A stretch of 64,000 bases of DNA from Tubulanus polymorphus. Its lineage: Eukaryota > Nemertea > Palaeonemertea > Tubulaniformes > Tubulanidae. The DNA is taken from positions 21,874,485 through 21,938,484 of the forward strand of contig NC_134027.1 of NCBI RefSeq assembly GCF_964204645.1. Reading direction: 5' to 3'. Numbering within the stretch: position 1 is the stretch's first letter; each line of letters opens with the position of its first letter. Below, piece by piece: positions 30,201-59,517 of this stretch. The position numbers and the translations under genes were made by a program. The notes below the pieces were generated by a model, which saw nothing but the letters and a program-made list of their open reading frames with translations, did not search any database and was not told the origin of the DNA.

Positions 30201-33200
30201 GTCACAGATGTAATTTATGTCTGGGAAATGAATAATCTTCCCTTGCGTGTCTAGTCTCAATCAGAAAATCGCTTTGTCCTCTGTAAGGTAAGTTCGCATT
30301 TTCGCAGAAGATTCTCTTCGTACCGGTGCGTATAGGAGGCTAGGTTGATTATTATAACTTCAAACAGCTTAGGATCCGGTGACGTGCCGGTGTTTCAGTT
30401 AGATTTTACTCATAGTTATCGTTATGAATTTATTCCGAACAACCCAGTTTCACAGTTATGAGTTTAATTTGACTCTGCACCTAGTTCCACAGTTGTAGTT
30501 TCAATTTTACCCAGGATCGAGTTCCACTGTTAATCGGTTTAATTTGACTCTGCATACCCACATTTATAAAGAAGGTAAGTTTCAATTACAGTAGACTGTT
30601 TGCCCGGAGCTGATAACCCGCGCAAAATGTTTGAAATTTTTTTTAAATTCGTGCGGTAATGATCGATTCCCTGCTCTGAAATTTTCATCTCGGAGAGAAT
30701 TGGTCGGTACTGCGGAGTCTGGGGCAACATAGTATAGACCTCAGATATCTAGTTATCCGCCTTTTTAGCTGGTTGCTAAAACATCTGAAAACAGTAAGTT
30801 TGAATAGAGGCTTGAAAGAAGCTCCAAACAGAATACAGTAAAAACCATACATAAATTGGATTTCCATTAGTCCAATAAACACTTAAGTTACAGTTTATGG
30901 TCTGAATGTCTTGAAATGTATGAAATCCACTTTCTATGGTGGCAGAACTTGAAGTATGTGCAGGAGCGGATCCAAGGTTAACGGAAAGGGCTGTCCACAT
31001 ACACTATGATTTTTATAACCTCTTTAATGGTGAAAAACCTAATTGCCACTACAAAATTTTAAAATTCTTTCAGTTGCTCAAGCTTAATTTTGACTTTTCT
31101 TCCCAAAGTATTCAGTCTGGAATATTTGGGGATGGAATGAAGAAACCTCAACTTTTAGGGGGGTATCTGGACCCCACAGACACCCCACCCCTCTACCCCC
31201 TCCATCCCCCTCCACTGATGAGTTATCTCGTAGTCAGCGGCAACATGATGATTATACCACTACATTTTATAACAGGTAGCACTGCTATTCTAAATTACCA
31301 TTCAGACAGTTTTCTTTGCGTTCGTATTTTCAGGTGAACCGACTACCGACGGCACGACGATGGTAAACGACATCTCGAACGTGAGTCCGGGCGCGTACGC
31401 CGCGAACCCTCACGAGCATAAATCGCTATCTCCGGCGTATATGGAACGAATGTGCACCGATATCAACTATCTGCAGAAACATTACCAGAAATTACGTCAA
31501 AGACAGCGTCAAGCGCATGTCATCATCGCGAGTAAGTATATTGGAATCGGTGATAAGGTACCGTTTTCAACCCTCTTCCCTTCTAACTTTCGGGTAGATT
31601 TTTTGCCGAAGCCATTACAGTCGATGTGGATTTCATTTGATTTCGGATCTGGCACATCAACACTGCTGTAGGTTCAATTCGACTTCAGAATTAGTTCTAA
31701 TGTTGTTGGGGTAAATTTGACTGGAGACTCAGTCATATTTTGTGGTTAACCCTTAAACTAACCCTAGGGTTTAATTTGAAATCAGAGATTGAATAAATCT
31801 ACCCTAAGTCAACCAGAACCCAGGGGCTAGTTCCATAGTCAGGGCTTAGACTTAAGACCAGTCTTAGGCGTCTTAGTTCTATAGCCAATCTAACAACTTA
31901 AGACCAGTCTTAAGATTTAGACAACTTTTGGTCTTTAGTCTTGACTGTGGAACCAGCCCCTGATCCATAGTTCTTTGGTTAAGATTTGACTTGGAGATGA
32001 AACATTGGAAATGAACCAATTTCAACTCAAACTTTAAACCCTTTCAGTGCTGACTAATTATACCCTAAAGTGCTGGAAATAATTTGAAATCATTTGATGT
32101 ATCATTAGTTACTAATATTTCGACATCTTTAACAGCATTTGATTTTGACACTAAATGCACATCTGTTGAGCTTTATTTCCTAATCCAACTAAACTAATCA
32201 ATAAAAATCGAATCTTTTCTCATTTCGTTTTAATTTGTGGCAGACGATTTCGAAGCGGATCCGTTGTCGTCACTATTGGTTACTGCTAGATTGAGCGATA
32301 CAATTCAATATCGTGTCGTACCAAGAGTTAGTTTAATTCCCGGATAAATATCGAATCCGGCATCTAATCTTTCCATACTCGCATTCGATAAAAGTACATG
32401 TATTCATTTATGCTGGTGGTTATGTTTCTGATTTTGTTTGAATGTTTTTGTTTGAGTTCAATGACTTTACCCTTTCCGGCCATACAGTAGCTCCTCTAGA
32501 AAAGAAAACCCTCATTTCTGGCGTATATAGTCAAAATTCACCTGGATTTTCACTAGAAGTACCGGTAAGGCGCTACCAATGATCGGTGGTATTTCTGTAG
32601 ACTATTGCAATTTAAAACCGTAAATAGAAATTGATGATACAAGGAAAAGAAAGTGACACAAAACACCAGTCATGTTGAAAAACCTAGCTCAGGCCGGAAA
32701 GGGTTAAATCCATTGCTTAAGCAGTATATCGGATCAGAATGGTCATATGATAACGAGGTGTAGGTTGGCCTGTGACTTGTTGCAACTTGACTCTACAACT
32801 GCCAGCGATTAGCTGTCGACCAACGCGTAATTGTGACTGCTAGGGTTAGTTAACCCTAGCCCTGCATCTGCCGCAAAGAGTCGCAACAAGTCGTACATGT
32901 TTTACTTTCTGTGACGCTGTGCGACCGTCTCTTGCAGTTGCTACCAAAATTTGCTGCTCTTACGACTGACTGAGACTGGTCGCATACTATCGTTGACGAT
33001 CTATATGCTCATTCGCGACCAGTTGCATGTTGTGTTGCAAGAAATTGTGAGTTGACCACGCCCGCCTTGAGGAAAAGCCACTGTTGCTTTTTGAATTTTC
33101 ACCATATCAAATAACGTCGAATCAAAAATATGAGCCAATCTGCGTTTCGGATTGGACACACATGATTATCAATATGGCAGCAACGTCGAAACTTGGCCCA

Positions 33201-36143
33201 AGATTTTTATAGTTTTTTTACTTTCTTATCGGATTATAGAGGAAGCTTGTTATTAGGAAATATACTATGGACCTAGCATTACTGGTCTTGACATTTAAAA
33301 ACATCTACGTCTTGGAATTTATGGAAAAATTCTGATATCATTGAATACATATAATGTATACATCTATGAATATAACATATATATGCGCAATGTTCTATTA
33401 ATCAACCTGTATTTATGCATAGTATGATATATTACTCGATACGATTTGAAGGAATTAACTACAACTTAAACCGAGGGTCTAGTGGCTTAAATTATTGTAT
33501 GCATTTAATGTTAACCAGCATTAGATACCGCAGTGCAGGGAACTAGTAAGTGAAATATTGTTTAAGCCATATCATTTCAAAGTTGTCCGTATCCAGTTAT
33601 GGAATTGTGAGTTTAAACGTGACTTGAGAGTTGATTATCTAAGAAATGAAACAACTGTGGAACTGGACCCACTTCCACGTTTAAGTTTTGACTCAAGAGT
33701 GAATTCATCAACGATAACTCTTGACTTCGATCTTCACTCGGAGCCATTGAACTGGTATCATTTAAATTTGAACTGTTCACTGTTTATTAATTCTCATACG
33801 CCGTGATCACACGGATAAGATTTGGCCTGGATCAGGCCCGAGTCAAATTTGACCCTTGCCTACGTGACAATTAGAGACGTAAACTACTCACTACTAAACA
33901 ATGCCTCGACAAAGCGAAGTGAGTCACTTCTGGAACCAGTTGCAATTCACATGCGATAATGTGACCAGTGCTAAAATTTGACTCGGGCCTTGTCCGTTGT
34001 TTTTGGGCAGACTAAATTTCGCCCGGGCCTAAAACGCCAGTGTGATCACGGCTGTATTGTTGCGATGAGTATCTAATCACTGGATAACATCAAACCACTT
34101 GCGGTCCGAGAACTGGATCATGTATATATTTCAAATACTTCAACAACATATGATTTCAACTAATCAAATTTTTGTTTCATTAATATTCTTAACAGGAAGT
34201 CATCGTTCTGGTAATCTGCACTGAGAATTTATTTTATAGCATATTTTTGAAACTGCGCACACCCGGTCACATTAAATTTCTCATAGCGGTTATTCAAACG
34301 AACACTCGTGGACCTGGATTTTTCTAATGTAGATCATCGCACATATAGATTATTATTTATGATACTTTTTTTGGTAAACAGCATTTGTTACGCTTCAAAG
34401 ATTTAACTTCCATGTTGGCACAATATACTGAACCCTAGGGGCCAATTTTATAGACCAGTTTCAACCTTAACTCTGGTGAGTTTTTTACAGACCAGTTTAG
34501 CCCACCGAGATTAAGTCAGGTTAGATATATAAGATTGGTCCCTGGTCAGTGTTTTTTTTTTTTAATGTAGATTGGTTTATTCCACATAACAACTTCGAGG
34601 TTAAGAACACTAATGGATTAGAATTAGTTTTGAATGTTTCTTTTACAAATATAGCCAAACGCTTTAAAGTTACTCATTTTAGATCATTTTAAGGGAAATG
34701 TAAGCCTTCATTGGCTTGAATTTATTCATGCACTTGAATTTTTCAGTCACTTGGATTCTATACCCGGCTATCATTAAATTTGACTGTCGTTCTAAGTTAC
34801 TTTATTTCATTCTTTCAGATGCACAAGCCCGTCATGCAGCCAGAAATCAGGCACAAGCGAAGCCAAAACTTGCCGCGGCTATACCACCTATAGAAAGTCC
34901 GGTGGCCGTAAATCATTTATTCATTCCGAAAAAAGGCATGGGAAACAAGAACCGTAAAATCACCGAAGCTCCGCGCATCGCTCCGATGTTCCCGCACAGC
35001 AGCCTGATTACGACGCAATTACACTACCGTCCTCCATCGGCGGGAAAAAAGAAAAAACACGAACGCAAGCTGAGTTCGTCGTCGTTCGATAGCGTCAGTA
35101 GTAACATCACGCGCGGCTCGTCGGTGACCAGCGACGGTCCGTGTTCAACAACAAGCAGCGATCGCCGCGGCAGCAACGCCTCGTCGACGTGTACGTTAGA
35201 CTCGCAGCAGACGGAAACGGAAATTCGACCAGCGGATGGCGAATGCATCGAGGAAGAGATTAAGGAGGGCGTTAGCGTTGATAACGAGGGTGCACACTTC
35301 GACGTAGATGGCGTTGGCGCCGCAAACGAGGGTACCGAGGATGTTAGCGTCGACGTAGATGGCGCTGGCGTGGACAAAAGCGCTAAAAACCCCGATATCG
35401 GCGACTATTCGAAAACTAAGTCCGACGAGACGAGCTGCGAAAACGCGCCAGACGATAGCTTCGGCGATAACAATGATATTGCATACAGCTGCGGAGAATT
35501 AAGCGACAGCACGATACATAGCGAGCACAGCGACGCCAGCGAGAATAGCGTTTTCAAAGAAAAACTGTTTAAAGAATGGAAAAATCACGAAAGCAAACTA
35601 TCGTCGGACTTGGTTTTATTTGAGTCGCGTAGTAATAGCGTCGACTGCGGCAGTCCGACTCGAGATGCCGCCGACGATGGCATGTCGCGTCCCACGCTGC
35701 TCGAATTGTCGCGACGTAAAAGCTACCCGGATAAAGGCCCGCTGGCCATGACGAGTCGCTACGGCAACGAGGATCTATCGGCGACCGGGCGCGACACGGA
35801 CAGTCACGACTCTACGGCGGCATACGTCACGAAGTTGACGTATAAATCTCAGAAAACAGCTCAGTTGGAGAAGGCGCCGATCGCGTCGCCATCAGAAAGT
35901 CCGAATAAAACGTTCAATCCGTTTCCGTTCAGGCATTTAAGCGAAAGTCGCGCGAAAAACGGAATCAAGCTCGGGTTGTATCGCGCGAACGCCGCGCAAC
36001 AATCGGCCGTCGACGAAACGAACGGTCGACAACAACGACAATCATCGGTGAAACAGATCAATCGTTCGCATATAAACGCGTGTTTACATCGTCAGTACAT
36101 GGCCGAAATCAGGGAAACCGGGCGGAAAAATTCCAACCGATAG
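6296..36143 (+). CDS. TBC1D30: TBC1 domain family member 30 (Rab GTPase-activating protein), 5'-truncated by the window
   Basis: Nine exons splice in one frame: 6296-6423, 18557-18682, 22624-22809, 24697-24862, 25563-25734, 26520-26625, 27133-27361, 31334-31531 and 34819-36143. All have AG acceptors and GT donors, and the phases match (0, 0, 0, 1, 2, 0, 1, 1 after each exon). The protein follows vertebrate TBC1D30 from the stretch just before the TBC domain (IDTRIKFSIEP) through the whole domain and into the tail, where AVNHLFIPKK matches a conserved tail block. Catalytic motifs are present: an IxxDxxR arginine finger split over exons 2 and 3 (IVKDLHR) and the YCQ glutamine finger in exon 3. 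The family stimulates GTP hydrolysis by Rab GTPases, and TBC1D30 acts on RAB8A and restrains primary cilium formation. The first exon enters in phase 1, so upstream exons (N-terminal coiled coil in vertebrates) lie before the window. About 877 residues are covered here. Confidence 0.95.
6439..6725. mobile_element. TTAA-flanked piggyBac-like MITE, copy 3
   Basis: TTAA at 6439-6442 and 6722-6725, 279 bp between, termini CCCTTTCCGTGC and GCACTGAAAGGG. It starts 16 bp after the donor of the first TBC1D30 exon, so it sits at the very edge of the intron. The palindrome ACACCGCACTGCGGTGT is intact near the right end. Confidence 0.75.
7005..7256 (+). mobile_element. GCCGYGATCACA MITE family, copy 4
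   Basis: Contains CGATTTGGCCCGCACC, ACAATGCTCAAACAAAGCGA and CATTTGGCACCCGTGTGAAC. Both extreme ends are eroded. Confidence 0.6.
8606..8712 (+). mobile_element. GCCGYGATCACA MITE family, partial copy 5
   Basis: Left end AGCCGTGATCGTACAAGCG followed by TTTGGCCTGTGCCAAATTAG; the rest is lost or rearranged. Confidence 0.4.
8934..9153 (+). mobile_element. GCCGYGATCACA MITE family, copy 6
   Basis: Both ends are clear: AGCCGCGATCACAGGG on the left and CGATCGCGGCT on the right. An inner deletion removes the AACAATGC block. Confidence 0.65.
9172..9285 (-). mobile_element. GCCGYGATCACA MITE family, partial inverted copy 7
   Basis: An inverted left half (GCATGTGAACGCGCTCTC, then GGGCCAAATCGTCTCC) lying 20 bp from copy 6 in opposite orientation. 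Confidence 0.5.
9985..10380. repeat. Tandem array, alternating 48- and 60-bp units
   Basis: About seven units of GATAATTCATGTTTCGAG + TTCTGATGGGTTCTATTTCG + GGATGTCTTT. The longer units carry a 12-bp insert (AATAAAGTTTTG). Both lengths are multiples of 12. Confidence 0.75.
11175..11490 (-). mobile_element. GCCGYGATCACA MITE family, copy 8
   Basis: Inverted copy with GGTGCCAAATGGGCGC and GTGTGAACGCACTCTCTAAT; termini diverged. Confidence 0.6.
11762..11836 (+). repeat. tRNA-derived SINE head (degraded)
   Basis: GAGCGCAGTTGGTAAGACCG is a good tRNA A-box region. The expected B box is only GTTAAAACC. No complete tRNA fold. Confidence 0.4.
11942..12593 (+). mobile_element. GCCGYGATCACA MITE copy 9, split by another repeat
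   Basis: The left part (AGCCGCGATTGCAGGG...GCGTTCACATG, to about 12022) and the right part (GATACTAAACAATGC...GATGGCGGCT, about 12368-12593) are consecutive in intact copies. Here they are separated by about 340 bp of a different dispersed repeat. Confidence 0.6.
12024..12365 (-). repeat. Dispersed repeat R, nested in a MITE
   Basis: Its reverse complement matches sequence upstream of both patatin genes (about 50010-50235 and 59580-59840). Shared blocks are GAACCGGAACCGAA, TATGTACTTCGATTT, GCCGATCACA and TAACAGGGA. No open frame. Confidence 0.6.
13402..13710 (+). mobile_element. GCCGYGATCACA MITE family, copy 10
   Basis: Diverged full-length copy starting TGCCGTGATTTATCGG, with TACTAGACAATGCC and a GCCAAAAACGCTTGTGTG right portion. 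Confidence 0.55.
14165..14780. repeat. Tandem array of ~20 units, 31-bp period
   Basis: Unit core GCGGTTCTGTTTGAAACC followed by a variable RRTAYRTYCTGCTG part. Because 31 is not a multiple of 3, the minus strand reads a 93-bp super-period in all frames without stops. This creates spurious open frames. Confidence 0.8.
16985..17340. repeat. Dispersed GACTGCCAGCAA repeat, copy 1
   Basis: Many degenerate GCGACTGCCAGCAACT units in tandem. The right end has CACCCGCCTTAAAACGG, which matches in inverse the ends of the copy at 32755. Confidence 0.4.
17880..18125. repeat. Degenerate tandem array (TGAACCCTCYAGATATCTCA)
   Basis: Five to six loose units around TGAACCC and AGATATCTCA, directly abutting a GCCGYGATCACA MITE copy. 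Confidence 0.5.
18129..18438 (-). mobile_element. GCCGYGATCACA MITE family, copy 11
   Basis: Inverted copy with CATGGGTGCCAAATGGGCCC and GGGCCAAATCATCTGGGTGT. It ends about 120 bp before a TBC1D30 exon. Confidence 0.6.
20281..20368. repeat. Two-copy tandem duplication
   Basis: CAACTGGAAGTAAAGCCTAA and AACAGCAAGAATAAAC recur about 46 bp later with small changes. Confidence 0.6.
21120..21300. repeat. Dispersed GACTGCCAGCAA repeat, fragment
   Basis: Contains GTGACTGCTGG, GTTGCAACTAGTCG and ACGACTGCTAGCAACGCG. Confidence 0.3.
21521..21845 (-). mobile_element. 3' end of a CR1/L2-like non-LTR retrotransposon
   Basis: The minus strand encodes a reverse-transcriptase C-terminal signature (RSFQ, DPTLWNSLDANIRN, FKQRVKHLLF), then a 3' UTR ending in an ATT-repeat tail (21521-21546). 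5'-truncated, as usual for LINEs. Confidence 0.6.
22624..22809 (+). CDS. TBC1D30: TBC1D30 exon carrying the TBC catalytic fingers
   Basis: This 62-codon exon, in phase 0 at both ends, starts with DLHRTG, which completes the IxxDxxR arginine-finger motif begun at the end of the previous exon (18682). It also holds VGYCQGFNMLAAL with the YxQ glutamine finger. Both fingers are intact, so GAP activity is expected. The acceptor follows a T-rich tract and the donor is AAG|gtagaa. Confidence 0.93.
23339..23632 (+). pseudogene. Unassigned CpG-rich coding-like segment in a TBC1D30 intron
   Basis: Following ttgacag, one + frame reads FYRGFISFDYEDGRPENYCC and on through a Cys- and charge-rich stretch (CRCAGYVPES) to TAG at 23504-23506. 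It continues in the same frame as CRSDDYWMEDDDDEHFDSSE to TAG at 23630-23632. Base composition is strikingly more CpG-rich than the intron around it, and the amino acids look like a real protein. The second half is also preceded by a possible acceptor (ctactgatttag). It could be a decayed gene or retrocopy fragment, or cassette exons of TBC1D30 or a nested gene. I do not recognise the family. No start codon is visible. Confidence 0.4.
24263..24582. mobile_element. Fold-back/SINE-like element with tRNA-like ends, copy 1
   Basis: The left end reads inward as the inverse of a B-box region (GGCAGGGATTTAATGGCATC), and the right end carries GATGCCATCGGGTTTGAATC. The interior has TTCTGATTGGCTATTAATGA, shared with the other copies. 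Confidence 0.5.
24915..25082 (+). mobile_element. Fold-back/SINE-like element, partial copy 2
   Basis: One end (TGGGGTTCGAACCTGTTGGC) plus the interior TTAGCCAATCAGAAATCAAG and CCCAGGTTATTCG. A poly(C) run lies at about 24980-24992. Confidence 0.4.
27590..27930. repeat. Tandem array, ~20-bp units
   Basis: About 16 degenerate units of CCCATTGGTACRTTGAATAY, in a TBC1D30 intron just after the exon ending at 27361. Confidence 0.7.
29131..29286. mobile_element. Fold-back element with a hammerhead-like motif
   Basis: Near-perfect arms of about 55 nt (29131-29190 and 29228-29286) share AACAAGACGAGTAGTAC and ACTATTTATTTGACGCACAA. CTGATGA at 29212-29218 and GAAA at 29230-29233, followed by GCTTGTGCGTC, resemble a hammerhead core. 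A related decayed piece lies at about 28770-28797. Confidence 0.5.
29882..30017. mobile_element. TTAA-flanked piggyBac-like MITE, internally deleted copy 4
   Basis: TTAA at both ends, termini CCCTTTCAGTGC and GCACTGAAAGGG, only 128 bp inside. The central part with most palindromes is missing. Confidence 0.7.
32033..32136. mobile_element. TTAA MITE fragment (left end only)
   Basis: Left part of the same family (CCCTTTCAGTGCTGACTAAT) without a matching right end. Confidence 0.5.
32244..32347 (+). CDS. TBC1D30: Candidate alternative last exon of TBC1D30
   Basis: Within the last intron, a T-rich tract and CAG (32241-32243) precede a frame that is open for 34 codons when entered in the phase 1 left by the exon ending at 31531. 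It reads DFEADPLSSLL, then ends VSLIPG with TAA at 32345-32347. The composition looks protein-like and differs from the AT-rich flanks. It would give an isoform lacking the 441-residue tail. No strong phase-1 donor lies inside it, so a terminal exon fits better than a cassette. I do not recognise it from vertebrate TBC1D30. Confidence 0.4.
32466..32707. mobile_element. Second TTAA-type MITE family
   Basis: Termini CCCTTTCCGGCC (32470) and GGCCGGAAAGGG (ending 32703), with TTTA on the left and TTAA on the right. It shares only the CCCTTTC tip with the family above; the interior is unrelated. Confidence 0.55.
32755..33078. repeat. Dispersed GACTGCCAGCAA repeat, copy 2 with inverted ends
   Basis: Left GAGGTGTAGGTTGGCC and right CCACGCCCGCCTTG are roughly inverted. 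The inside holds repeated GCAACT/CTGCCAGCG units. Confidence 0.4.
33799..34053 (+). mobile_element. GCCGYGATCACA MITE family, copy 12
   Basis: Both termini are intact (GCCGTGATCACACGG and GTGTGATCACGGC), with the family core AACAATGCC...CCAGTTGCAATTCAC. Confidence 0.65.
34819..36143 (+). CDS. TBC1D30: TBC1D30 large terminal coding exon
   Basis: The final exon carries 441 codons plus the stop TAG at 36141-36143. Its acceptor is tctttcag|ATGCAC, entered in phase 1, so the upstream part of the open frame back to 34716 is intron, not an alternative start. It begins with an Ala/Gln/Lys-rich stretch and the conserved AVNHLFIPKKG block, then becomes a disordered Ser/Asp/Glu-rich tail. The tail contains an imperfect internal repeat of Val-Asp-Gly units (about 35265-35375) and basic phospho-site-like motifs such as RRKSYP. 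Codon use is far more GC-rich than the surrounding introns. The function of the tail is not evident beyond family resemblance. Confidence 0.9.
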
Positions 36144-41842: not shown

Positions 41843-42763
<921 letters not shown>

Positions 42764-44749: not shown

Positions 44750-45081
44750 ATATGTATATAGTAACAATCTATTTTAGCTGATTTGATTGAATACTTTCAA
44801 TCTGGAAATATTACACGTCACTTTCTATCCATATATTGGCAGGTCAAATTACAGCATTCTTTAGCATATTTTCAGAACACACGTAAAACAATCGATGCAT
44901 CAAGCTGAATAATTTTCGAAATACTGTAGAGTGCTCATCCAACCAAGCTGAAAATAGAATTCAATAGGCATTTAACACTGTGATGTTGGTTTATTGAAAG
45001 CCAATCAAATTTTGAGATTTCCATCTCATGACGTGCATTCATCTGCGCTCACTGATTACGCAAAAAGTTTGTTTGAATTAC

Positions 45082-45177
45082 CTTCATGCAGAATTTCATG
45101 TCATCAATATGGAGATCCGAATCATTCGTATTTATGTAGCTCGTGTAGAGACACGCCGTTCTGTCCTTGTCATCGGG
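45082..45177 (-). other. Exon-like 96-bp segment downstream of copy A
   Basis: Minus-strand sequence bounded by gttttag and AAG|gtaatt, 32 codons, phase 0 at both ends. It reads PDDKDRTACLYTSYINTNDS and ends MKFCMK. The TNDSDLHID part loosely resembles an EF-hand loop. A matching segment lies at 53161-53256 below copy B. The phase would allow splicing from exon 9 as an alternative to exon 10. The differences between copies that I compared change the amino acid, so constraint is not evident. Confidence 0.25.
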
Positions 45178-45608: not shown

Positions 45609-48600
45609 TCAAACCCCGGCAAACGAGGATGCCCGCCGAACGGCGACACGACGATTACTGACTTTTCTCGAGAGTGTGCTGATACGGGTTTGCATGGCAT
45701 TCACGACGCGGGAAAAATAGTCGAAAAGAGACGTCGGGTTTGAAGCATCAACTTCCGATCCCAATATCAACTTCACCATACTGAAACCACGATCCCTGAT
45801 GAACGACATTACCTCCGCGTGCGAGACCTTGAAATTTCAATTCATCAAGATTAACCGACATTGGTTCTTTAATAATAATAAATAATTATAATAATAATGA
45901 TAATAATAATAATAATGATAATGATAATTATAATGATGATACTGATAATGATAATGATAATGATGGTAATGGTAATGGTAATGGCAATGGCAATGGCAAT
46001 GGCAATGGCAATGGCAATGGCAATGGCAATAACAATAACAATAATAATGATAATAATATTAAATAATAAATAAATTTTTATTGTCCTTAATATAGCGCAA
46101 TTTCTACATAGTATGGATTTAGTATGTATGCACTTTACGGATAAGAAAATAGAAAAATTAAGGATACAATTCTCAGTGAAATGCAAACGTTTCGACTGTA
46201 GGACTAGATCTAATATGAATAGGGAGAACATTCCAAAGTTCAGGAGCAGAAAATTTAAAAGCTCTCTAAACTAATTTACAATTTGTGAGCACGAGTTGTA
46301 AAAATCAGCGGGATAGGCCTACGTATTGGTGCGATGTATACCTGGTTGTTAGAATTCCGATCCAAAGCTTTCAACATTTTATCACATTGACTTCGGTCCT
46401 CGTTAAACAGTAAACGAAAGTCTTCATCTGACAGCAGGTCCTTCTTAAAAAGTAAATCATTAATTAGCAATCATATTATCATCACGTATACGGCCTCTAC
46501 ACATATAAACTTGAGTGTTGTGTGTAATGCAACAAACAGCTTACATTTTCTAAGACAGTTCTCAGTTCGTCCGCGTCGATCAATCTATCATTATTTTTAT
46601 CAAATGTATTTAGATTCTTGATAACCCGTTTAATCGCCCCGGCTAATTTGACTTTCTTCGCATACTCGGTTTCCTGAAATTTTGTCTGCAGACTACGTTT
46701 TCTGGAAAAAGTAAGTTACTACCACAAAACAGGTTAAGATGAGTGCTTGTTACGTGCTTAACCAAAACTGGATCAGAAAAATAAGCGTGGTATATGTCAG
46801 TAAAATGTGATCTATTTTGCCCCATCCGTTCGGTTTCTCTGGGATTTAGTAACGAACTGCATTTGACTAATTTGAAACTGTTGAAATCAATTTGTTAAAC
46901 GTTAACTATATCCTGAAACACTGCGCAATAGTTTGAATGAAAACAATGGATGATTTTACTCATTTAAAACTTTAGAAACTATAAACCGATTCTGGAACAT
47001 CTCCCTTGTGTCTTACCGTGAAAGTTTGGTATCAGGAAATTTGGGCCACTCATATTTCCATTTACCAAAGAAATCACCTTTGCCGGGGTCTTCCTGGTTC
47101 ATGTCAAACTAATTAATAAGTTCATAATTCATTTAAATATCTAATCGGCGTATTCATTACCAACCAAACGTTTTCCATTTGCATTACCACAAGTAGTCCC
47201 AATGTCTTTTTATTGATGGTACCAAATGGTTCTATATTCTTGTCAAACATCGTGAAGTAATCTTTGTCTGGATCCATACTCAAATACCAACCTAAATAAA
47301 GCAACAATATACCGTTATCCAAGTCATTTAGTGTGCAGTTTTCATGATATCATATTTCTTAGCCTCTTTTAATATCAATAGGCAGAAGTGTTATAGATTA
47401 CGTACCGTCGAATGCGCTGATAAGAAAATTGTCCAGCAGACCACCGTCCACGTAATAAGACTCTCGGAAAAACGACGGTTTGATAAAAGCTGGAAACGAC
47501 AATGATTTTAGATTTAGATTTTAGAAATGATTTTTAAAGACGTTTTAGATACGTGTTTTCCTTTGAATACCATGTTTTGACAAAATTGAAGTAGATTCAC
47601 TACAGCCTGTCAAAAATCGACAACTGGCCACGGCAATAAAAAATGCTTCCAACGCACCTGTTCTAGGCTTTGAATTTTCAAAAAAATTCAAGCATATCAA
47701 TAACTGTTCGCTTAGTTTTCTTCTCATGAATTTCAGACTTACGGAGCCCCGGAGGGGACATGATGAGAAATGAATATATTTCTTTTATCAAAATTATTTC
47801 GTTCGAACGAAGAAAGAAAAACATATTTCTCGCCATGTCCCCTCCGGGGCTCCGTACAGAATCCCTGGTGTTACTGTTTTATTTTGAAACGGTTTATTGA
47901 CCTGTGGGCATTGTGCCAAATTACGTGGAAGCGAAGACGATACGATTGCAGCGTACGCTATGGACACGTGCGGCGTCGTCTTTACGTGGAAATATTCCGG
48001 TGTTTGGTGAGTTAGATTTGAAACTACTATGCACAATTCGACACCGAATTGTTTATACAACTGAAAGCATATGAAATATGAAGTGACTATTTTCACTAAC
48101 ATCGATATCGTTTTTAGCGATCGTCCCTCTTGATTTGATTTGTATGGTGGCTAATTCTGGACAGGTTAAACATTTTTCATCCTCCGCGAAAACGCGCAAA
48201 AACAAAATATTCCGTTCTTGCGCGCTTCAAGTTTTGTTTTTGCGAACAAACATTTATTGTACAAGATAGATTCATCAATTATGAAGGCTCCTCGTATTAT
48301 GTCCGAAACTTTATCAACTGTAAATCACAAAATGTTGTGTATGGAATTTTTTTGGTAATAAATGTGATAAATGTATCTGTTTGGGGGAGACGGGGATTCA
48401 CTATACCAACGGCAACTACTCATGTCCCTAATACGTACGCCACAAAACTGATGATTCAATCTCAAACAATTTCAACACTCTAAACCATTCTGTATACAAT
48501 CTATCAATCATGGGCATTGAAAAACTTTGTGAAAATGAGTCCTTTAGAAAGACCATAGAAAAATTGTGGATCAAAAAACTAAGAACACAAAAACCATTGG

Positions 48601-49942
48601 GTATCAATAGCAAACTAATATAGTTGCAATACAAGTCAGATTATTATTGCCCGCTTTTCATCAGCTGTATCTTGTATCATTTGTATTTTTGATATCCTGT
48701 TCTTTTCCTACCTGTGCGAATGTAGTTTTTCGATCTCCGGTCTTCTGCTCGACAAGAGTCTCCAACACTTTGAGACCTCGTTCCCCGTGATGCCAGCCCG
48801 AGTTTTTTATGATCTTCACGAGCAACGCTATTTTAGGAGCATCTGAAAGGTAAACATCAACAGAAGACAAATTGAATCAAGGTTTCAAAAATGAATTCAT
48901 AAACAAACAGATCCTTTCGACCCGATTTAGGCAGGTTATCGTGATTAGTTTTGACGTCACTTTGAGACCGTTCGAGGTATAAGAGCAAAAGGTACGTTCC
49001 ATGAAATCCGGATTGAACATAACATGTTCAATTATTTCTTCAGGGGTCATTCCAATTGAACACATCATGGCTACCACCGACCCGATACTCGATCCCGCAA
49101 AGCGCTTTACATTTCTCAGGACTTCCATATCGCGCAGTGCCTGTAACGAATCGCTCGGAATATGCTAGCTGAGGTTTTCGATTTGGTTGGCACTGAATAC
49201 GGGTCTGGGGCTTTCCCCAAAAATGATTTTGAAAATGTGATACTCAGATTCAGTAATACGATTTCAAACGCCCGAATACCCTCCCCTTCCCCCACGCTAC
49301 GGGACTGCTAAGATACGGATAAGGATACCTTCCGAGATTAATCTAAATGCCCGATTCAGAGAAACGATGATGAGAAAATGATACCTGCACTTTTTCCATT
49401 TTTGAATTAGTTTCGATGTTGATGATGGCAGCAGTTTTTTTAATGATTTCAGATTTTTGTACACTTCTATATAGACAATGATGAGGTAAAGCCCAACACA
49501 CAAAACGCAGGGAAACACAGAATCAAACACGTCTGACCTCGAAGACATTGTTACCCAAAACCGTGTGTCTCGTGAAAACGCGCACGGCACAGGGAAACGC
49601 TATGGAAACACGATTCTGTATCCTGTTTCCGTGTTTTCCCGTCATGTGTGTTGGGCTTCTGAGATGCTTACAAGAAATATGAAACGCGATAGTTATATAT
49701 CTAGAATTATAAGGCTACAGTATCATTCAGTAGGCTATTAGGATATACTTCTCAATCACAAATATTGTTACCAGTAGCGCGCCACAGTACGCCAGCCCTT
49801 TAGTGCCACCTCCTTCAAACACTAGATTTTCGATGTCGTATTTTCGACCGATGAATTTCTTGAACATGGCATCGTCCCTGATGTAGTCGACTGCTTCTTG
49901 CACGCGTAACCTACGCGACGGTAAAGACGCGCCGCCTCCCAT
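45609..49942 (-). CDS. Patatin-like phospholipase with C-terminal EF-hands, copy A
   Basis: Ten exons, read from high to low coordinate: 49942-49772, 49140-48996, 48842-48712, 48060-47925, 47489-47406, 47291-47188, 47108-47017, 46701-46545, 46443-46342 and 45827-45609. They join in frame into 1341 nt (446 residues plus TGA). Residues 1-6 (MGGGAS) fit the N-myristoylation pattern and are followed by a basic RRLR patch. The patatin domain has the oxyanion loop GGGTKG (44-49), the nucleophile elbow GSSIG (Ser75) and the dyad Asp209 in DGG. The PEYF...TTPHVSI region also fits the family. The C-terminal part has EF-hand loop 1, DKNNDRLIDADE (322-333), and loop 2, DRNSNNQVSHAE (368-379), the latter split by the exon 9/10 junction. 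Patatin enzymes are Ser/Asp lipid acyl hydrolases. Calcium control and membrane anchoring are inferences. After DGG, copy A has Leu where copy B and the family usually have Pro. Confidence 0.85.
45868..46272 (-). mobile_element. 3' end of a non-LTR retrotransposon in copy A intron 9
   Basis: A minus-strand frame reads FKFSAPELWNVLPIHIRSS, the LINE C-terminal motif, followed by a short 3' UTR and a long simple-repeat tail (45870-46065). The tail is built of ATT/ATC and GCCATT units. The same intron in copy B lacks it. Confidence 0.6.
46342..46701 (-). CDS. EF-hand-encoding exons 8 and 9 of copy A
   Basis: Exon 8 (46701-46545) encodes a Lys-rich helix, then the canonical 12-residue loop DKNNDRLIDADE. 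Exon 9 (46443-46342) encodes the second EF-hand up to DRNSNNQ, and the loop is finished by VSHAE in exon 10. Loop 1 has Asp/Asn/Asp at positions 1, 3, 5 and Asp at 9 with Glu at 12, the full calcium ligand set. Loop 2 has Asp/Asn/Asn and Glu12. The loops are 34 residues apart, a little longer than in calmodulin-type pairs. Confidence 0.8.
47740..47856. mobile_element. Short palindromic MITE in copy A intron 4
   Basis: Perfect 23-bp inverted ends (TACGGAGCCCCGGAGGGG... at 47740-47762 and its inverse at 47834-47856), with further pairing inside. Copy B has an uninterrupted site at about 56598. Confidence 0.65.
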
Positions 49943-51864: not shown

Positions 51865-53160
51865 TTAAATAGTTAACCTATAAAGTACTACTCGTTTCGT
51901 TGGAAAATAATTGTAAGAAGGCCAATAGGCTTAAATCTGATCAAATAAAACAGTTAACCTATGAAATACTACTCGGCTCGTTGTATTTATTTTACACCTA
52001 GTTAAAACGGCTCCTCTGCGATTTTTTTTCAATTTTTTCCCAGTATGCCCACAACACAACCAATACGAGACTGGGAATAATTATTATATTGTCATTTCTC
52101 TGATGATGGGGTTTGATAAACTCCGATACTGTCAGACAGTAAACTCTTTGATATAAACTGTAGGCTTTTTACTTGTTAACGCACAATACTGAGATTAATA
52201 TCAGTCTTCTATTATGGGGCTTTGATGACATACATTATTAGGCTTTCATGAATTATATTAATGGGCTATCAGGAAATATATTTTTAAGCTTCAGTTATCA
52301 ACAACAAGTAATGTCAGGACGCTGGATTTCGTGGCCAGTGTCGCTATTATCAGACAAACAACGTTGATGCTTGTGTCATTCATAAACAAGAAATAGAAGT
52401 TATGTAATAAACATATCTGGGTGTGACGCATGAATCCACGTAGGGAAACCTAAAAATGGCGCGGCCATGACCTACGGTTAGCGCAAAAGGTATTTTTAGA
52501 ATGTTGTGATGTGTGTGTAGAAACGTTAACACTCCATACATGGGTCGGTTGAATATTGTTACGTATGAATATGTCAAGATCCGTAAATACCAAACCCTGC
52601 ATGGTAAAGGGCCTGCACACCGTTCTAAACAGTAAACGATATAAAAAGGGAGAGCTAGTCTTTGAAAAAAAGATGGAAAGGCGGGAAAAGATAGAATGTA
52701 TATATCTGGTTATGAGAAAATAAAGATGGATAGATAGACTTAAGAAATCGCTGGAGTTATATACAAAGAGCCTTACAAGCAAATCATGAACTCAGGACAC
52801 TGGTACATAATACGCTACCACAACACTTTTAGTCGCATTATTGATATAAATATAATGATGATTTATTTCTAGCCGATTTGATAGGGTACTTGATATGTTA
52901 CACGTCACTTTCTATCCACATATAAATAGGCTAAATCACAGCATTTTATAGCATATTTTCAAAAAACACGTAAAACAATCGATGCATCAAGATGAATGAT
53001 TTTCGAAATGATGTAGAATGCTCATCCAGCCAAGCTGAAAATGGAATTCAATAGGCATTTAACGCGGTGATGTTTGTATATTGAAAGCCAATCACATTTT
53101 TAGATGAAGTGTATTCATATCCACACTCACTGATTCCACAAAAATGTGTGTTTGAATTAC

Positions 53161-53256
53161 CTTCATGCAGAATTTCATGTCATCTGTATGGAGATCCGAA
53201 GCACCCGTATCTATGTAGCTCGTGTAGAGACACGCCGATCTGTCCTTGTCATCGGG
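53161..53256 (-). other. Exon-like 96-bp segment downstream of copy B
   Basis: Counterpart of 45082-45177, with acceptor gtttcag and donor AAG|gtaatt and the same 96-bp length. It reads PDDKDRSACLYTSYIDTGAS and ends MKFCMK. Loop-like residues seen in the copy A segment are partly lost. Confidence 0.25.
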
Positions 53257-53536
53257 CTGAAACGAAACGTCATTCAACGTAAGTTGCTTTTGGGAGCTCG
53301 ACGCATCCAGCTAACCACCCTCGCTTGCCAGGGTTTCATTGCTTCACGCCGAAGTTCACGCCAACACAAACCCTACATTGGTCACCAGTCAATATATGTA
53401 GCAAATCAGGTACGTAGCGAATCCGCCAGTGAAAACCAACGTCTCTGATTGGCTTAATACATAGAATAGTGGCCGTTGAGTGGCAACCTGTCGACCAAGA
53501 AATCTTGGTCGACGTGTGATAATAGGCGGGAGGAAA

Positions 53537-56500
53537 TCAAACCCCGGCAAGCGAGGATGCCCGTCGATCGAAGGAGTTACGGTTACTGACTTTTCTCGAG
53601 AGTGAGCCGATACGGGTTTGCATGGCATCCACGACGGCCGAAATATATTCGAAAAGAGACGTCGGGTTTGAAGCATCCACTTCCGATCCCAATATCAACT
53701 TGTCCACACTGAAACCACGATCCCTGATGAACGACATTACCTCCGCATGCGAGACCTAAAAATTTAATTTCATCAAGATTAACCGACATTGGTTCTTCTG
53801 AACTATGGCCCGAGCAATTCATAATCGTTAAAGAACTCATTGACAATTTGTGAGCACGAGCTAAACATCAGCAGGAACTAGGCCTATCTACGTATTGGTC
53901 CGATGTATACCTGGTTGTTAGAATTCCGATCCAAAGCTTTCAACATTTTATCACATTGACTTCGGTCCTCGTTAAACAGTAAGCGAAAGTCTTCATCTGA
54001 CAGCAGGTCCTTCTTAAAAAGTCAATCAGCCATCATATTATCGTCACTAATAGGCCTGTATACATATAAACTTCAGTGTATTGTGCGTGATCAAAAATAC
54101 ATAGTATATTTGGTGTGATGTATAGTAACTCGTCGAAAACGATCAAGTTTATTCAATGTCAGGTCGGCTTCCGACCGAAATAACTGCTCAGTACAAACTA
54201 CCAACTAAAGGTATGTCTGTCTGTCTCCTTCTATCTCGACTATGCCTTATACATATTCCCATATAGTAACAAAAACTGCGCATCAAAAACAAAGCTGACA
54301 GACAGTGAGCCGACAAGTTGAGCAACAACATGCCACAAACAAAGACAGTGAGCACATACAACTAATTACCTCCCAAACACGACTGTCTATACAAAACATC
54401 AAGTTGCTATAAATGCAACGAACATCTTACATTTTGAAAGACGGTTTTCAGTTCGTCCGCATCGATCAATCCGTCATTATTTTTATCAAACGTATTTAGA
54501 TTCTTGATAACCCGTCTAATCGCCCCGGCTAATTTGACTTTCTTCGCATACTCGGTTTCCTGAGACTTTGTCTGCAAACTACGTTTTCTGGAAAAAGTAA
54601 ATTACTACCACAAAATGACAGCTTTAGATGGGTGCTTGTCATGTGCTTAACCAAAACTAGATTAGAAAAATAAGCGTAGTCTAGTCAGTAAACGTAATCT
54701 ATTTTGCCCCATTCGTTCAGTTAATTCGGGATTTAGTAATGAACTGCATCTGACTTATTTAAAACTAGAGAAATCAATTTGTTAAACGCTAACTATATCC
54801 TGAAACATTGTGCAATAGTTTGAATGAAAACAATGGATAATTCTAACATTTTGACTGAACAATTTGCCTTGTGTCTGTCTTACCGTGCATGTTTTGTATC
54901 AGGAAACTTTGGCCACTCATATTTCCATTTATCAAAGAAATCACCTTTGCCGGGGTCTTCCTGGTTCATGTCAAACTAGTTAATCAATTAATAACTAAAT
55001 GATTTATTCAAATGTTCAATCGGCGTATTCATTTAGTAACCAAACGTTTTCCACTTGCAGAATATTTACCACAAGTAGTCCAAATGTTTTTTTATTGACG
55101 GTGCCAAATGGTTCTATATTCTTGTCAAACATCGTGAAGTAATCTTTGTCGGGATCCATACTCAAATACCAGCCTAAATAAAGCGACAATTACACCGTTA
55201 CCTAAGTCATTTAGTGTGAAGTTTTCATAATGTCATATTTCTTAGCCTCTCCTTAATTTCAATAGGCAGAAGTGTTATAGATTACGTACCGTCGAATGCG
55301 CTGATAGGAAAATTGTGCAGCAGACCACCGTCCATGTAATAAGATCCTCGGAAAAACGACGGTTTGATAAGAGCTGGAAAGGACAATGATTTTAGATAGG
55401 CTGTGAAGTTATTAAACATCGAACGCTCACTGACAAAGTTCCGCCCATGTCGACCTTAAGGTTATTTGAGCATCGATTTAAAAACTTTTAATCATTGGTA
55501 ACACCACCGACTCATTAGTTAGTGCACATGCTTCCAAACTTAGTTGATTTTGAAGCAAAATTATTGGAAGTAGAAGCAAAATGTTCATCTTAAATACAAG
55601 TTGTGAAATTGCTTCTTTTTGCATCTCATTTTCGTTGCAAAATCTTCTGCCTGAGTACTCCAGGACCCGACATATGCTTGGCTACCAATAAGTTCCACTT
55701 TCTAGAAAAAAAGTTCCACTTCCATGAACATAGTACCATCCCCATGATAATTGACACCCCCCCCCCTCCCATGGCTGGCTAAAGGCCTGACTACTAAGGC
55801 CAACTTCGGTTATCGGAGTTAGTCTAACCAACCGAAACCGAATGTCAGATAGTCGGAACTATGGTCCGGAAATGGTCGACCACGCGATTGAGCGCGGTTG
55901 CTGCAGTTCCGAACTACCTCCAAGATGGCCGACACTGTTAAATACGTTACGACTGAACTATAGTGCGTCCCGATCGGTTATTAGTTCCGACCACTAGTCG
56001 ACTAGCTTCGAACACCGAAGTTCGCCAATGTAGCTGCTAACCGCGAAACGAAATATGAAGTGCGAGAAGTTTCCATAAAGATCATCTATTGATTCGACGT
56101 TTCAACTATAACCTTAGTCATCTTTGATAATTTTTGCCTACTAAAGGGTTTCTCTTTCATGAAATATGAAATATCGTTCCGAGTTTTCCATCCTCCCCCA
56201 GCAGGGATTTGAACCTGATGGCATCGAGATTGCCACGGTACGAAACCCTGCCACACTAGCCTGCCACACTTCACACGCAGCTTAGATGATGTCATTAACA
56301 GCCAATCAGATATCCCGTTTTATTTTTGCCCGGGTTTTCCCATTGATAGTTCTTCCGTGAAATTTACCTCGGCGATTAAACAACAAGCAATCTGATTGGT
56401 GCCGCAAGTGTTCGTGCGGCAAAGCTGCGTATGTACCTGCGCGCCCGGTCTACTGTGGCAGGGGTTCGTGCCGTGGCTGAGTGTAGCGATGTCATCAGGT

Positions 56501-59500
56501 TCGAATCCCTGCCGTGGGAGGATGCGAGTTTCCATTCAACGGCTATTTCATTGCAGCGCACTGGTGTCGTTCCGAGTATCAGCGCTGTTCTCTATTCGTG
56601 AATTTCAGACTCAGTGGTGTTACCGTTTTATTTTGAAATGGTTTATTGTATCAATTCTTTTGTACTAACTTACGTGGAAGTGAACAAGATACGATTGCGG
56701 CGTATGCGATGGACACGTGCGGCGTCGTCTTTACGTGGAAATATTCCGGAGTTTGGTGAGTTAGATTCGTAACTACTATGCACAATTCTACACCGAATTT
56801 TTTATACAACTGAAAGCATATAAAATACGAAGTTACTATTCTGCCCATCATTTAAACCGTTCCAATGCTAAGTGATTCACCAGCCCTCTTTTTATGTTAG
56901 AATTGGTCTCACAATAAAACCGGACTATGAATATGTAAAAAAATTTCGGGTTAATTGATACATAGGCTATTAACACGTAAAGGAAATATTACTCAAAGAC
57001 AAAAGCACGCGTCCCATTTGTTCTGACATTTACCACCTAGAACTAACACCACAATATTCGAAAATCATGCGTCTTCCTAGCGTGACGAATTTTTCTAAAC
57101 TGTAACTGTGCCTGATAGTTGCAGCCGAGAGAAATGAAATAAACACCACCAGAAGATAGAAATTGTCACCTTTCTGACAATACATAACTTTTGATTTGTG
57201 TGGCAAAAGGGGGACGGACGAAAATTAATCGCGCTAAAGTTTTAAGTGTAAAAGAAAATCTGTCCAACAATGCGGCTCCAAATGGCGCTGGTAATTCCCA
57301 ATTAGATATTCTTATGATTTTTTTTCATGGGAAAAAAAATTCGAGAAAAGTTATCGCATTTTCTGTTTCGTGGTTTTCGTCTTTTTACCTGTTCGAATGT
57401 AGTTTTTCGATCTCCGGTCTTCTGTTCGACAATCGCCTCTAACACGTTGACACCTCGTTTCCCGTGGAGCCAGCCCCAGTTTTTTATGATGTTCACGAGC
57501 AACGCAATTCTAGGAGCATCTGAAAGGTAAACAAAGAAATAAGCAGATGACGAATTGAATCAAGGTTCCAGAATTGAATTCATATACTATACCAATGTCT
57601 ATTTCAACTTGACTTTAGAGCACATCGGTTGGCCTAGCTCGATCATTTTGGTGATACAGGTCTTAAAAGGACCGGCAGTTGATCTAAAACAGCGATTATC
57701 AACTCATTTTTCACTATTTCGTGAATGAAATCATTAGCAACGACAACGAGAGAAATCCCACAATAAATTCAGCAAGAACGAGAAACTCGAATAGAAGAGT
57801 ATATATATTTGCGCAACGTTTCGGCTAAAGACTATTAGCCATCATCAGGCGTACTGATAATTCATAATCGTTGTTTTAGACTAACTGCCAGTTGATTCCG
57901 ATCCTATCAAGTCATATATCAGATATGTATACCGCCAAAACTGACCGAGCTAGACCACCCGATATGCTCTAAAGTAAAGTTGAAATAGACATTAGACAGA
58001 TCCTATTTACGGAGGTTACTATGATTAGTTTTGAAAGTCGCTTTGAGACCGGCCGAGTTTCAAAAGCTAACGTACCTTGCATGAAATCCGAATTGAACAA
58101 AAAATGTTCAATTATTTCTTCAGGGGTCATACCAATTGAACACATCATGGCCATCACCGACCCGACACTCGCTCCCGCAAAACGCTTTACATTTTTCAGG
58201 ACTTCCATATCGCGCAGTGCCTGTAACGAATCACTCAACGTTGTATCTAGATAACTAGGTTATCACGGGTTAATATTGGGTGGGATGTTTCGTGTTGATG
58301 TGACAATCATTTAGTCCTAGATATCATTTGGAAGGGTTTAAGCGTCGTTAAAAATGTTATAAGGAATAATTATAAGGAGGCATTCAATTTACGTGGTAAA
58401 AGAAAATCATCACAAAATGAAATACAAAACATCATCAGCCATTTTTAGAAGATGTCTCGCTCTGTGAGGAAATAAGTGAAACTATAGCCTACCATTGGCA
58501 ATTCAGTGAGGAAGTTCATGAACTATTTTTGTTATTACTGTAATTCTGATATGTTTATGTCTCCCCATCAACCAACCCGTCGAAGACGGATATCCTGCTA
58601 ATTCGATATACGTCAAAAGAAACCACATGGAAAAGACTAACGTCGTTCGGATGGAGCCTCGCAAGCCCATAGCGCGAAGAAGGTGGGTGTGTTTTTGATT
58701 TGGTTAGAACCGAAAGCGAGTCTCTAGCTATCCCACAGGAAGATTTTGAAAATTTGATGCTCAGATATAATATGCCGCTTAGGATCGATTTCCATTGATA
58801 TAACAAAGGTTTATTCAAGTGAAATACATGTAGTAGATATATCGTTTCTGCTTAATATTTCCTTTTGAATTGAAAATGAGCGGAAATAAGTTTTCTCATG
58901 CCCGAATACCCAACGCCACTACGGGACTGCTTGGATAAGGATACCTAGCCGTGGTAAATGATATTGAACCTACAGTTGATGATATCTTACATTATGATTC
59001 TAACGGTTTCGAGATTAATCTAAATCACCGATTCAGAGAAACCATAATGAGAAAATGATAGTAAGGATACCTTGCATTTTCTTAATTTTGAATTAGTTTC
59101 GATGTTAGGCACAGGCCAGCAGCAGTCTTCTAATGATTTTAAAATTTTTTGATGACCCTTTTAGATTAAGTAATGCGATAGGGAAACGCGACGAAACACG
59201 ATTCTGTCTCCTTTTTCCGTGCATCCCCGTCATGTGTGTCGGCTTTAGAGATGCTTAAGAAATGTGAATCGCGATAGTTATATATTTTGAGTTATAAGGC
59301 TACAGCATTATTTAGTATTATACTTCTCAATATGAAATATCGTTACCAGCAGTGCGCCGCAATACGCCATCCCTTTAGTGCCACCTCCTTCAAACACTAG
59401 ATTCTCGATGTCGTATTTTCGACCGATGAATTTCTTGAAAATGGCATCGTCCCTGATGTAGTCGACTGCTTCTTGCACGCGTAACTTACGCGACTGTAAA

Positions 59501-59517
59501 GACGCGCCGCTTCCCAT
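53537..59517 (-). CDS. Patatin-like phospholipase with C-terminal EF-hands, copy B
   Basis: Ten exons: 59517-59347, 58220-58076, 57519-57389, 56809-56674, 55373-55290, 55173-55070, 54975-54884, 54587-54431, 54012-53911 and 53755-53537. Each has exactly the length and phase of its partner in copy A, again 446 residues. MGSGAS keeps Gly2 and Ser6 for myristoylation. An in-frame ATG seven codons upstream exists only in this copy and is replaced by a stop context in copy A, so the MGSGAS start is preferred. The catalytic motifs are GGGTKG, GASVG and DGGLLHNFPI, a more canonical patatin signature than copy A. EF-hand 1 (DKNNDGLIDADE) has the usual Gly at loop position 6; EF-hand 2 is identical to copy A. 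Exon 1 differs at 5 of 57 residues. No frame breaks were seen, so both genes look functional. Confidence 0.85.
55799..56026. mobile_element. GGCGAACWTCGGTT MITE, copy 3
   Basis: Inverted ends CCAACTTCGGTTATCGGAGT and CGAACACCGAAGTTCGCC, 228 bp. It sits in copy B intron 4 next to the fold-back element and is absent at the matching site in copy A. Confidence 0.6.
56184..56535. mobile_element. Fold-back/SINE-like element with tRNA promoter-like ends, copy 4
   Basis: The right end has an A-box-like TGGCTGAGTGTAGC and a perfect B box, GGTTCGAATCC. The left end carries an inverted version (GGGATTTGAACCTGATGGCA). Arms are about 90 bp. It sits in intron 4 of patatin copy B and is absent from copy A. 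Confidence 0.55.
57803..57850 (-). ncRNA. Hammerhead-like motif, Penelope-type, in copy B intron 2
   Basis: On the minus strand: CTGATGA (57848-57842), a perfect GGCTAA/TTAGCC stem, then CGAAAC and GTTGCGC. This matches the two conserved core strands with a well-formed stem II. I cannot identify a proper cleavage triplet, so activity is doubtful. Copy A lacks this insert. Confidence 0.4.

Follow-up and report, generated by a model that had tools for sequence, protein, structure and literature searches.

A predicted patatin-like phospholipase family with an EF-hand pair nested in its catalytic domain in the nemertean Tubulanus polymorphus

Introduction

The animal patatin-like proteins PNPLA1-9, including iPLA2beta (PLA2G6), have the patatin fold with its Ser-Asp motifs and are known as 'calcium-independent' phospholipases; to our knowledge, none of them contains EF-hands. 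Bacterial ExoU and VipD/VpdC are injected effectors that become active only once a host cofactor has remodelled them, and their regulatory parts are C-terminal and are not EF-hands. The phospholipase CapV of the cyclic-oligonucleotide-based antiphage signalling system (CBASS) has the patatin core in common with these proteins and is gated by cyclic nucleotides, not by calcium. Here we describe a gene, hereafter copy 1, in a 64,000-nucleotide stretch of Tubulanus polymorphus contig NC_134027.1 (positions 21,874,485 to 21,938,484 of the forward strand; the window, from whose first base coordinates are counted). The gene is predicted to encode a patatin-type acyl hydrolase into which a pair of EF-hands is inserted. 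Patatin and EF-hand domains are both known.

The names ExoU, VipD and VpdC come from our search results. VipD was among the best sequence matches in PDB (3.5e-12) and VpdC the best NCBIfam model, at 101.3 bits, far under the family cut-off of 1000; the CapV model, whose cut-off is 200, was matched at 3.8e-6 with 26.4 bits. A plasmid protein of Nitratidesulfovibrio vulgaris (WP_271371547.1) was 33.7% identical over query residues 38-222, and of 198 genomes drawn from the Bacteroidota, to which a Paraprevotella genome belongs, 9 contained relatives at E 1e-12. PLA2G6, as represented in PDB, matched the profile of bacterial patatins described below only at 0.0062. With the full-length query no match to the genome's other patatin loci was seen at E ≤ 1 among the best 50 candidates, a weak negative, as matches are exon-sized.

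Results and discussion

Gene structure and number of copies

A preliminary description of this DNA had joined ten exons by hand into one frame of 446 residues that holds an MGGGAS start, the motifs GGGTKG, GSSIG and DGG and two EF-hand loops, and had ended the gene at a stop at 45609. The ten exons, which lie on the minus strand, do splice through proper AG/GT sites, and a tandem copy (copy 2, 59517-53537) has the identical structure, with 391 of 447 positions identical over that frame, stop included. While the union of a patatin with two EF-hands in a single gene held, the proposed end did not, as exon 10 ends at 45663, at a donor that precedes the end of the stop by 54 bases, and two overlooked exons follow. 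As predicted from its sequence, copy 1 is a 12-exon gene for a 476-residue protein and belongs to a set of six related genes detected in the genome. The exons are as follows (slashes mark exon boundaries).

Copy 1, exon 1: 49772..49942, minus strand; MGGGAS start and GGGTKG oxyanion motif (49813-49796)
Copy 1, exon 2: 48996..49140, minus strand; GSSIG nucleophile motif (49095-49081), weak donor GAAC/GTACCT
Copy 1, exon 3: 48712..48842, minus strand
Copy 1, exon 4: 47925..48060, minus strand
Copy 1, exon 5: 47406..47489, minus strand; DGG (47448-47440)
Copy 1, exon 6: 47188..47291, minus strand; end of the first patatin block, FGTINKKTLGLLV
Copy 1, exon 7: 47017..47108, minus strand; beginning of the insert
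Copy 1, exon 8: 46545..46701, minus strand; EF-hand loop 1, DKNNDRLIDADE (46601-46566)
Copy 1, exon 9: 46342..46443, minus strand; residues 1-7 of EF-hand loop 2, DRNSNNQ (46362-46342)
Copy 1, exon 10: 45663..45827, minus strand; remainder of loop 2 (VSHAE), end of the insert and start of the C-terminal patatin block, donor AAA/GTCAGT
Read-through of exon 10 into intron 10: 45609..45662, minus strand; the end given in the preliminary description, common to tandem copy 2 only
Copy 1, exon 11: 45082..45177, minus strand; PDDKDRTACLYTSYINTNDSDLHIDDMKFCMK, previously overlooked
Copy 1, exon 12: 44900..44947, minus strand; LGWMSTLQYFENYSA and stop, previously overlooked
Copy 2, 12 exons in tandem: 52987..59517, minus strand; 59517-59347, 58220-58076, 57519-57389, 56809-56674, 55373-55290, 55173-55070, 54975-54884, 54587-54431, 54012-53911, 53755-53591, 53256-53161 and 53034-52987

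Besides copies 1 and 2 (c1 and c2), which lie in the window, the six comprise c3 (contig C3, L038), c4 (C11, L039), c5 (C11, L040) and c6 (C10, L041). A search of the 267.8 Mb assembly with the full-length protein returned at least 51 exon matches, falling into at least six loci plus one EF-hand-only match on contig C1, and exon 4 of c6, used as the query, hit six genomic places from six candidates. Downstream of c5 we saw a remnant of yet another EF-hand patatin copy, with broken pieces of exons 7 and 8 (L042, 3616-3993; about 8261.5 kb on C11).

Comparison of the six copies decided the 3' end. Past the exon-10 donor, copies 1 and 2 read into a similar peptide with the same stop, whereas c3, c4, c5 and c6 read into four different peptides with different stops. 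Below exon 10, by contrast, a conserved stretch was detected by tblastn in c3-c6 and by sequence in copies 1 and 2. In the nucleotide comparison, the exon-10 donor reads LSRK/GTCAGT or alike in copies 1-4, GTAAGA in c5 and GTAAAA in c6, always in phase 0; exon 11 measures 96 bases in all six copies, and exon 12 follows in phase 0. The latter was visible in five copies, and that of c5 was located with a small hidden Markov model (HMM; E 2.7e-4) behind an intron of 2,984 bases, with an AG acceptor and again in phase 0. Since exons 11 and 12 are present in all six copies, the predicted protein comprises 12 exons and, in copies 1 and 2, 476 residues. The stop at 45609, shared with its read-through by the two tandem copies only, was rejected as the end of the gene; copies 1 and 2 may have an isoform that retains intron 10.

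The same exon chain bears on the question of whether a patatin gene and a separate EF-hand gene had merely been joined by hand. In five paralogues the patatin exons run on, in phase, into the EF-hand exons; the succession in c3 is broken solely by the absence of exon 3. Moreover, the patatin domain resumes beyond the EF-hands, and the single hhalign path described below runs across both. Two separate genes were rejected on these grounds, and we give that arrangement practically no credence.

A different concern is that copy 1 might be a decaying duplicate, with only some copies (for example copy 2, c4 and c6) being working genes. Its exon-2 donor is weaker than that of copy 2 (GAAC/GTACCT versus CAAG/GTACGT), which is a reservation on copy 1, and its residue 217 is Leu, at a site that is occupied by Pro in all five others (P217L). 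Decay within the family would also be in keeping with the loss of exon 3 in c3, which breaks the frame from exon 2 to exon 4, and with the lack of an ATG at the aligned start of c5. Yet the 476 codons of copy 1 are free of stops and frameshifts, and its branch carries nonsynonymous and synonymous changes (36/21) in the same ratio as that of copy 2 (24/14). Pairwise ratios of nonsynonymous to synonymous substitution rates (dN/dS) among copies 1-4 were 0.24-0.40 overall. We consider decay of copy 1 unlikely; c3 is possibly a decaying gene. In c3 (C3:21964000-21973500) the exon-3 interval holds simple-repeat-like sequence, and the protein starts with MRSGAS, not MG.

The EF-hand pair lies inside the patatin domain

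The Pfam Patatin model (PF01734; cut-off 27.7 bits) matched residues 40-221 of copy 1 with 95.4 bits (E 6.6e-27) and copy 2 with 105.6 bits. The GGGxKG oxyanion motif, the GxSxG serine and the DGG aspartate are intact in all six copies, which suggests an acyl hydrolase with a Ser75/Asp209 dyad and predicts lipase activity. The EF-hands had previously been described as C-terminal. Both the hhalign path and a test of the tail profile instead place them ahead of the last part of the patatin domain: because exons 11 and 12 represent the C-terminal part of that domain, the EF-hands are internal to it.

For this comparison, the animal family was represented by alignment A1 (five copies, c3 omitted; elsewhere c3 was compared without exon 3), and bacterial relatives without EF-hands were taken from plasmids and from the nine Bacteroidota genomes. 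They entered either as alignment A3 (L057, L060, L061, L064, P0001, P0006, P0007 and P0008, with P0002-P0005 omitted) or as an eight-protein HMM built from seven of the loci L056-L064 plus P0001, L062 and L063 being dropped for having no open reading frame (ORF) by the motif filter. All eight bacterial patatins matched the Patatin model, and EF-hand models matched none of them (0/8) at E 0.1. Aligning the animal alignment with the eight bacterial patatins in hhalign yielded a single path over query residues 37-476 (E 2.3e-42), in which the EF region stood almost wholly opposite a gap. Thus the bacterial ExoU/VipD-like patatins have the same motifs and one continuous domain path that includes the C-terminal block, but between the TLGL-type segment and that last block they have a bridge of 13-23 residues with no EF-hand match, whereas the animal proteins have 147 (c6) to 150 (c2) residues with two EF-hands.

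The tail by itself pointed the same way. A profile of the six tails aligned with template columns 271-339, the extreme end of the bacterial profile (score 45.1, P 1.1e-6, 69 columns); the best of 100 column-shuffled controls scored 20.6 and was located elsewhere on that profile. The bacterial HMM matched c6 in two blocks in the proper order, HMM 4-234 on residues 39-270 (5.8e-45) and HMM 241-321 on residues 401-481 (5.1e-5), and its second block reached 0.028 in c5 and 0.12 in c4. Searched as isolated tails with this HMM, c6 gave 3.2e-6, c5 0.0017, c4 0.0028 and c1 0.12, the best of 1200 shuffles being 1.0. Some of the results detract from the nested arrangement. The second HMM block is not significant alone in c1, c2 and c3 (independent E values of 6, 63 and 110), and the isolated tails of c2 (3.4) and c3 (4.6) fall within the range of the shuffled ones. 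In a first, weak tail test against six assorted bacterial patatins, ranks 1, 2 and 4 of 1806 went to real proteins, at E values of 0.96 or higher, and the remaining three were inconspicuous; this test was the one redone with the closer bacterial relatives. Taking both sides into account, we regard it as almost certain that the catalytic domain is interrupted by the EF pair, between the conserved TLGL-type segment after DGG and the last C-terminal block.

Conservation of the EF-hand loops

Loop 1 of copy 1 reads DKNNDRLIDADE, and loop 2 reads DRNSNNQ/VSHAE, interrupted by an intron. In both loops positions 1, 3, 5, 7, 9 and 12 are occupied by Ca2+ ligands in all six copies, and every one of the six genomic copies contains the loop pattern exactly two times, against 0.005 occurrences expected per shuffled protein. 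The preliminary assignment of EF-hands was borne out by Pfam: EF-hand_1 (cut-off 25.4 bits) scored 25.7 bits in copy 1 and 29.6 bits in copy 2, and EF-hand_6 (cut-off 25) scored 25.7 bits in copy 1 and also passed its cut-off in copy 2. The pair model EF-hand_7 stayed under its cut-off of 30 bits, with 25.1 for copy 1 and 28.3 for copy 2. When the 12-exon proteins of alignment A1 were scanned (c3 left out, c5 without exon 12), Patatin, EF-hand_1, EF-hand_6 and EF-hand_7 each matched five of five copies with E no higher than 0.01, and the strongest EF-hand_7 match had E 9.6e-11. These data suggest that the EF-hand pair binds Ca2+.

A putative calcium switch and its alternatives

As to what the pair might do, we marginally favour a Ca2+-regulated, membrane-associated patatin hydrolase of the ExoU/VipD type. 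The MGxGAS start would be N-myristoylated and would hold the enzyme on the cytosolic face of a membrane; a rise in Ca2+ would change the conformation of the EF-hand pair; and the pair would shift the C-terminal block or a lid, so that phospholipid could reach the Ser75/Asp209 dyad. Movement of the C-terminal block or lid would be expected because both ends of the EF pair are anchored in the catalytic domain, and since VipD, ExoU and VpdC are activated by cofactors, we infer that Ca2+ likewise opens the active site and switches patatin activity.

Several features of the family weigh against this proposal. The starts of the two loops lie 45-46 residues apart and canonical EF-hand pairs are spaced nearer 36 residues, so the pair may be unusual. 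Position 6 is Arg in loop 1 of copies 1 and 3 and Asn in loop 2 of five of the six copies. The C-terminal part evolves faster, with dN/dS of 0.35-1.06, the upper value being that of copies 1 versus 2. A Met-Gly start is absent in c3 (MRSGAS) and in c5 (VGAGAT, with GTG and no ATG at the aligned start). Finally, an AG two bases ahead of the ATG is conserved in copies 1, 2, 3, 4 and 6, so that an intron in the 5' leader or a further exon upstream is possible.

The loop spacing and the frequent substitution of Gly at position 6 would suit a structural module that stays static and loaded with Ca2+, or one that docks a partner, with activity not being switched at all. Such a module would also fit the weaker constraint on the EF part, the c2-c4 dN/dS values being 0.12 for the catalytic, 0.40 for the EF and 0.49 for the C-terminal part. 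It fits less well with the retention of the Ca2+-ligand positions in all six copies, even at an identity as low as 33% (c2 versus c6), and with loops in c6 that are near-perfectly canonical. We judge a static role to be somewhat unlikely, and gating of the active site by Ca2+ stays our preferred interpretation.

The N-terminus offers a further alternative. The preliminary description had suggested a membrane-anchored lipid hydrolase switched by calcium, with a logic similar to recoverin-type anchors, and a Ca2+-myristoyl switch of that kind would let Ca2+ govern membrane attachment and not the active site. Met-Gly starts four of the six proteins (1, 2, 4 and 6), three of which (1, 2 and 4) also have Ser at position 6 and thus the MGxGAS start that the aligned bacterial patatins lack; this start is a candidate site for N-myristoylation. 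In sequence, however, the EF-hands are distant from the N-terminus and lie within the catalytic domain, and c3 has kept both EF loops despite having no Gly2 (but it also lacks exon 3). We consider control of attachment by Ca2+ to be very unlikely.

Occurrence and significance

Broadened to a general statement, the gating model would define an animal patatin phospholipase family with a bacterial-effector-like core, anchored by myristate and gated through a nested EF pair by Ca2+, a description that we offer tentatively and find plausible while leaning slightly against it. If it is true, a patatin containing its own calcium sensor would couple Ca2+ signals directly to the release of fatty acids and lysolipids, and would be a Ca2+-switched counterpart to the so-called calcium-independent phospholipases. 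The predicted architecture also shows clearly how a regulatory module can be nested in an enzyme instead of appended to it.

Similar EF-hand patatins may well sit in other animals. Scans of viral contigs found no relative, a scan of genome contigs with patterns peculiar to the animal family returned one distant protein only, and a query with the EF pair matched 0 of the 198 Bacteroidota genomes, in a search that had no positive control. Among the titles and beginnings of abstracts listed, in literature lying mostly outside subscription journals, no patatin with EF-hands was described, and in the passages of one article that were available (PMC10470789) the sole mention of EF-hands concerns a phospholipase C, not a patatin.

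Surroundings of the tandem pair

Intron 4 of copy 1 contains an inverted repeat at 47743-47853 with perfect 20-base arms (47743-47762 and 47853-47834). The arm had no other match in the window with up to 3 mismatches, hence none in copy 2, and the repeat has the appearance of a small mobile element. Downstream of the tandem pair, an unbroken TG dinucleotide repeat extends over 918 bases (41844-42761). Elsewhere in the window we noted a 31-base tandem array at 14096-14842 and a dispersed repeat, some 126 bases long, that recurs at 1753, 5992, 7091, 12377 and 33889. No gathering-level Rfam match was obtained in the window, and a search of the assembly for COX1 did not find it. A neighbouring plus-strand ORF (31294-31671) has a sub-threshold match to DUF4682 (26.2 versus 27 bits), a domain characteristic of TBC1D30-type proteins. 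Next to it, a long ORF (34704-36143) matched no Pfam family at E 0.01. In the wider genome, ten Hox genes (L065-L074) run on the same strand of contig C6 (5317900-5635100) from a Post2-like to a labial-like gene, and include a Lox5-type gene with a KLNGP peptide as well as Lox4/Lox2-type genes, signatures that are presumably of spiralian type.

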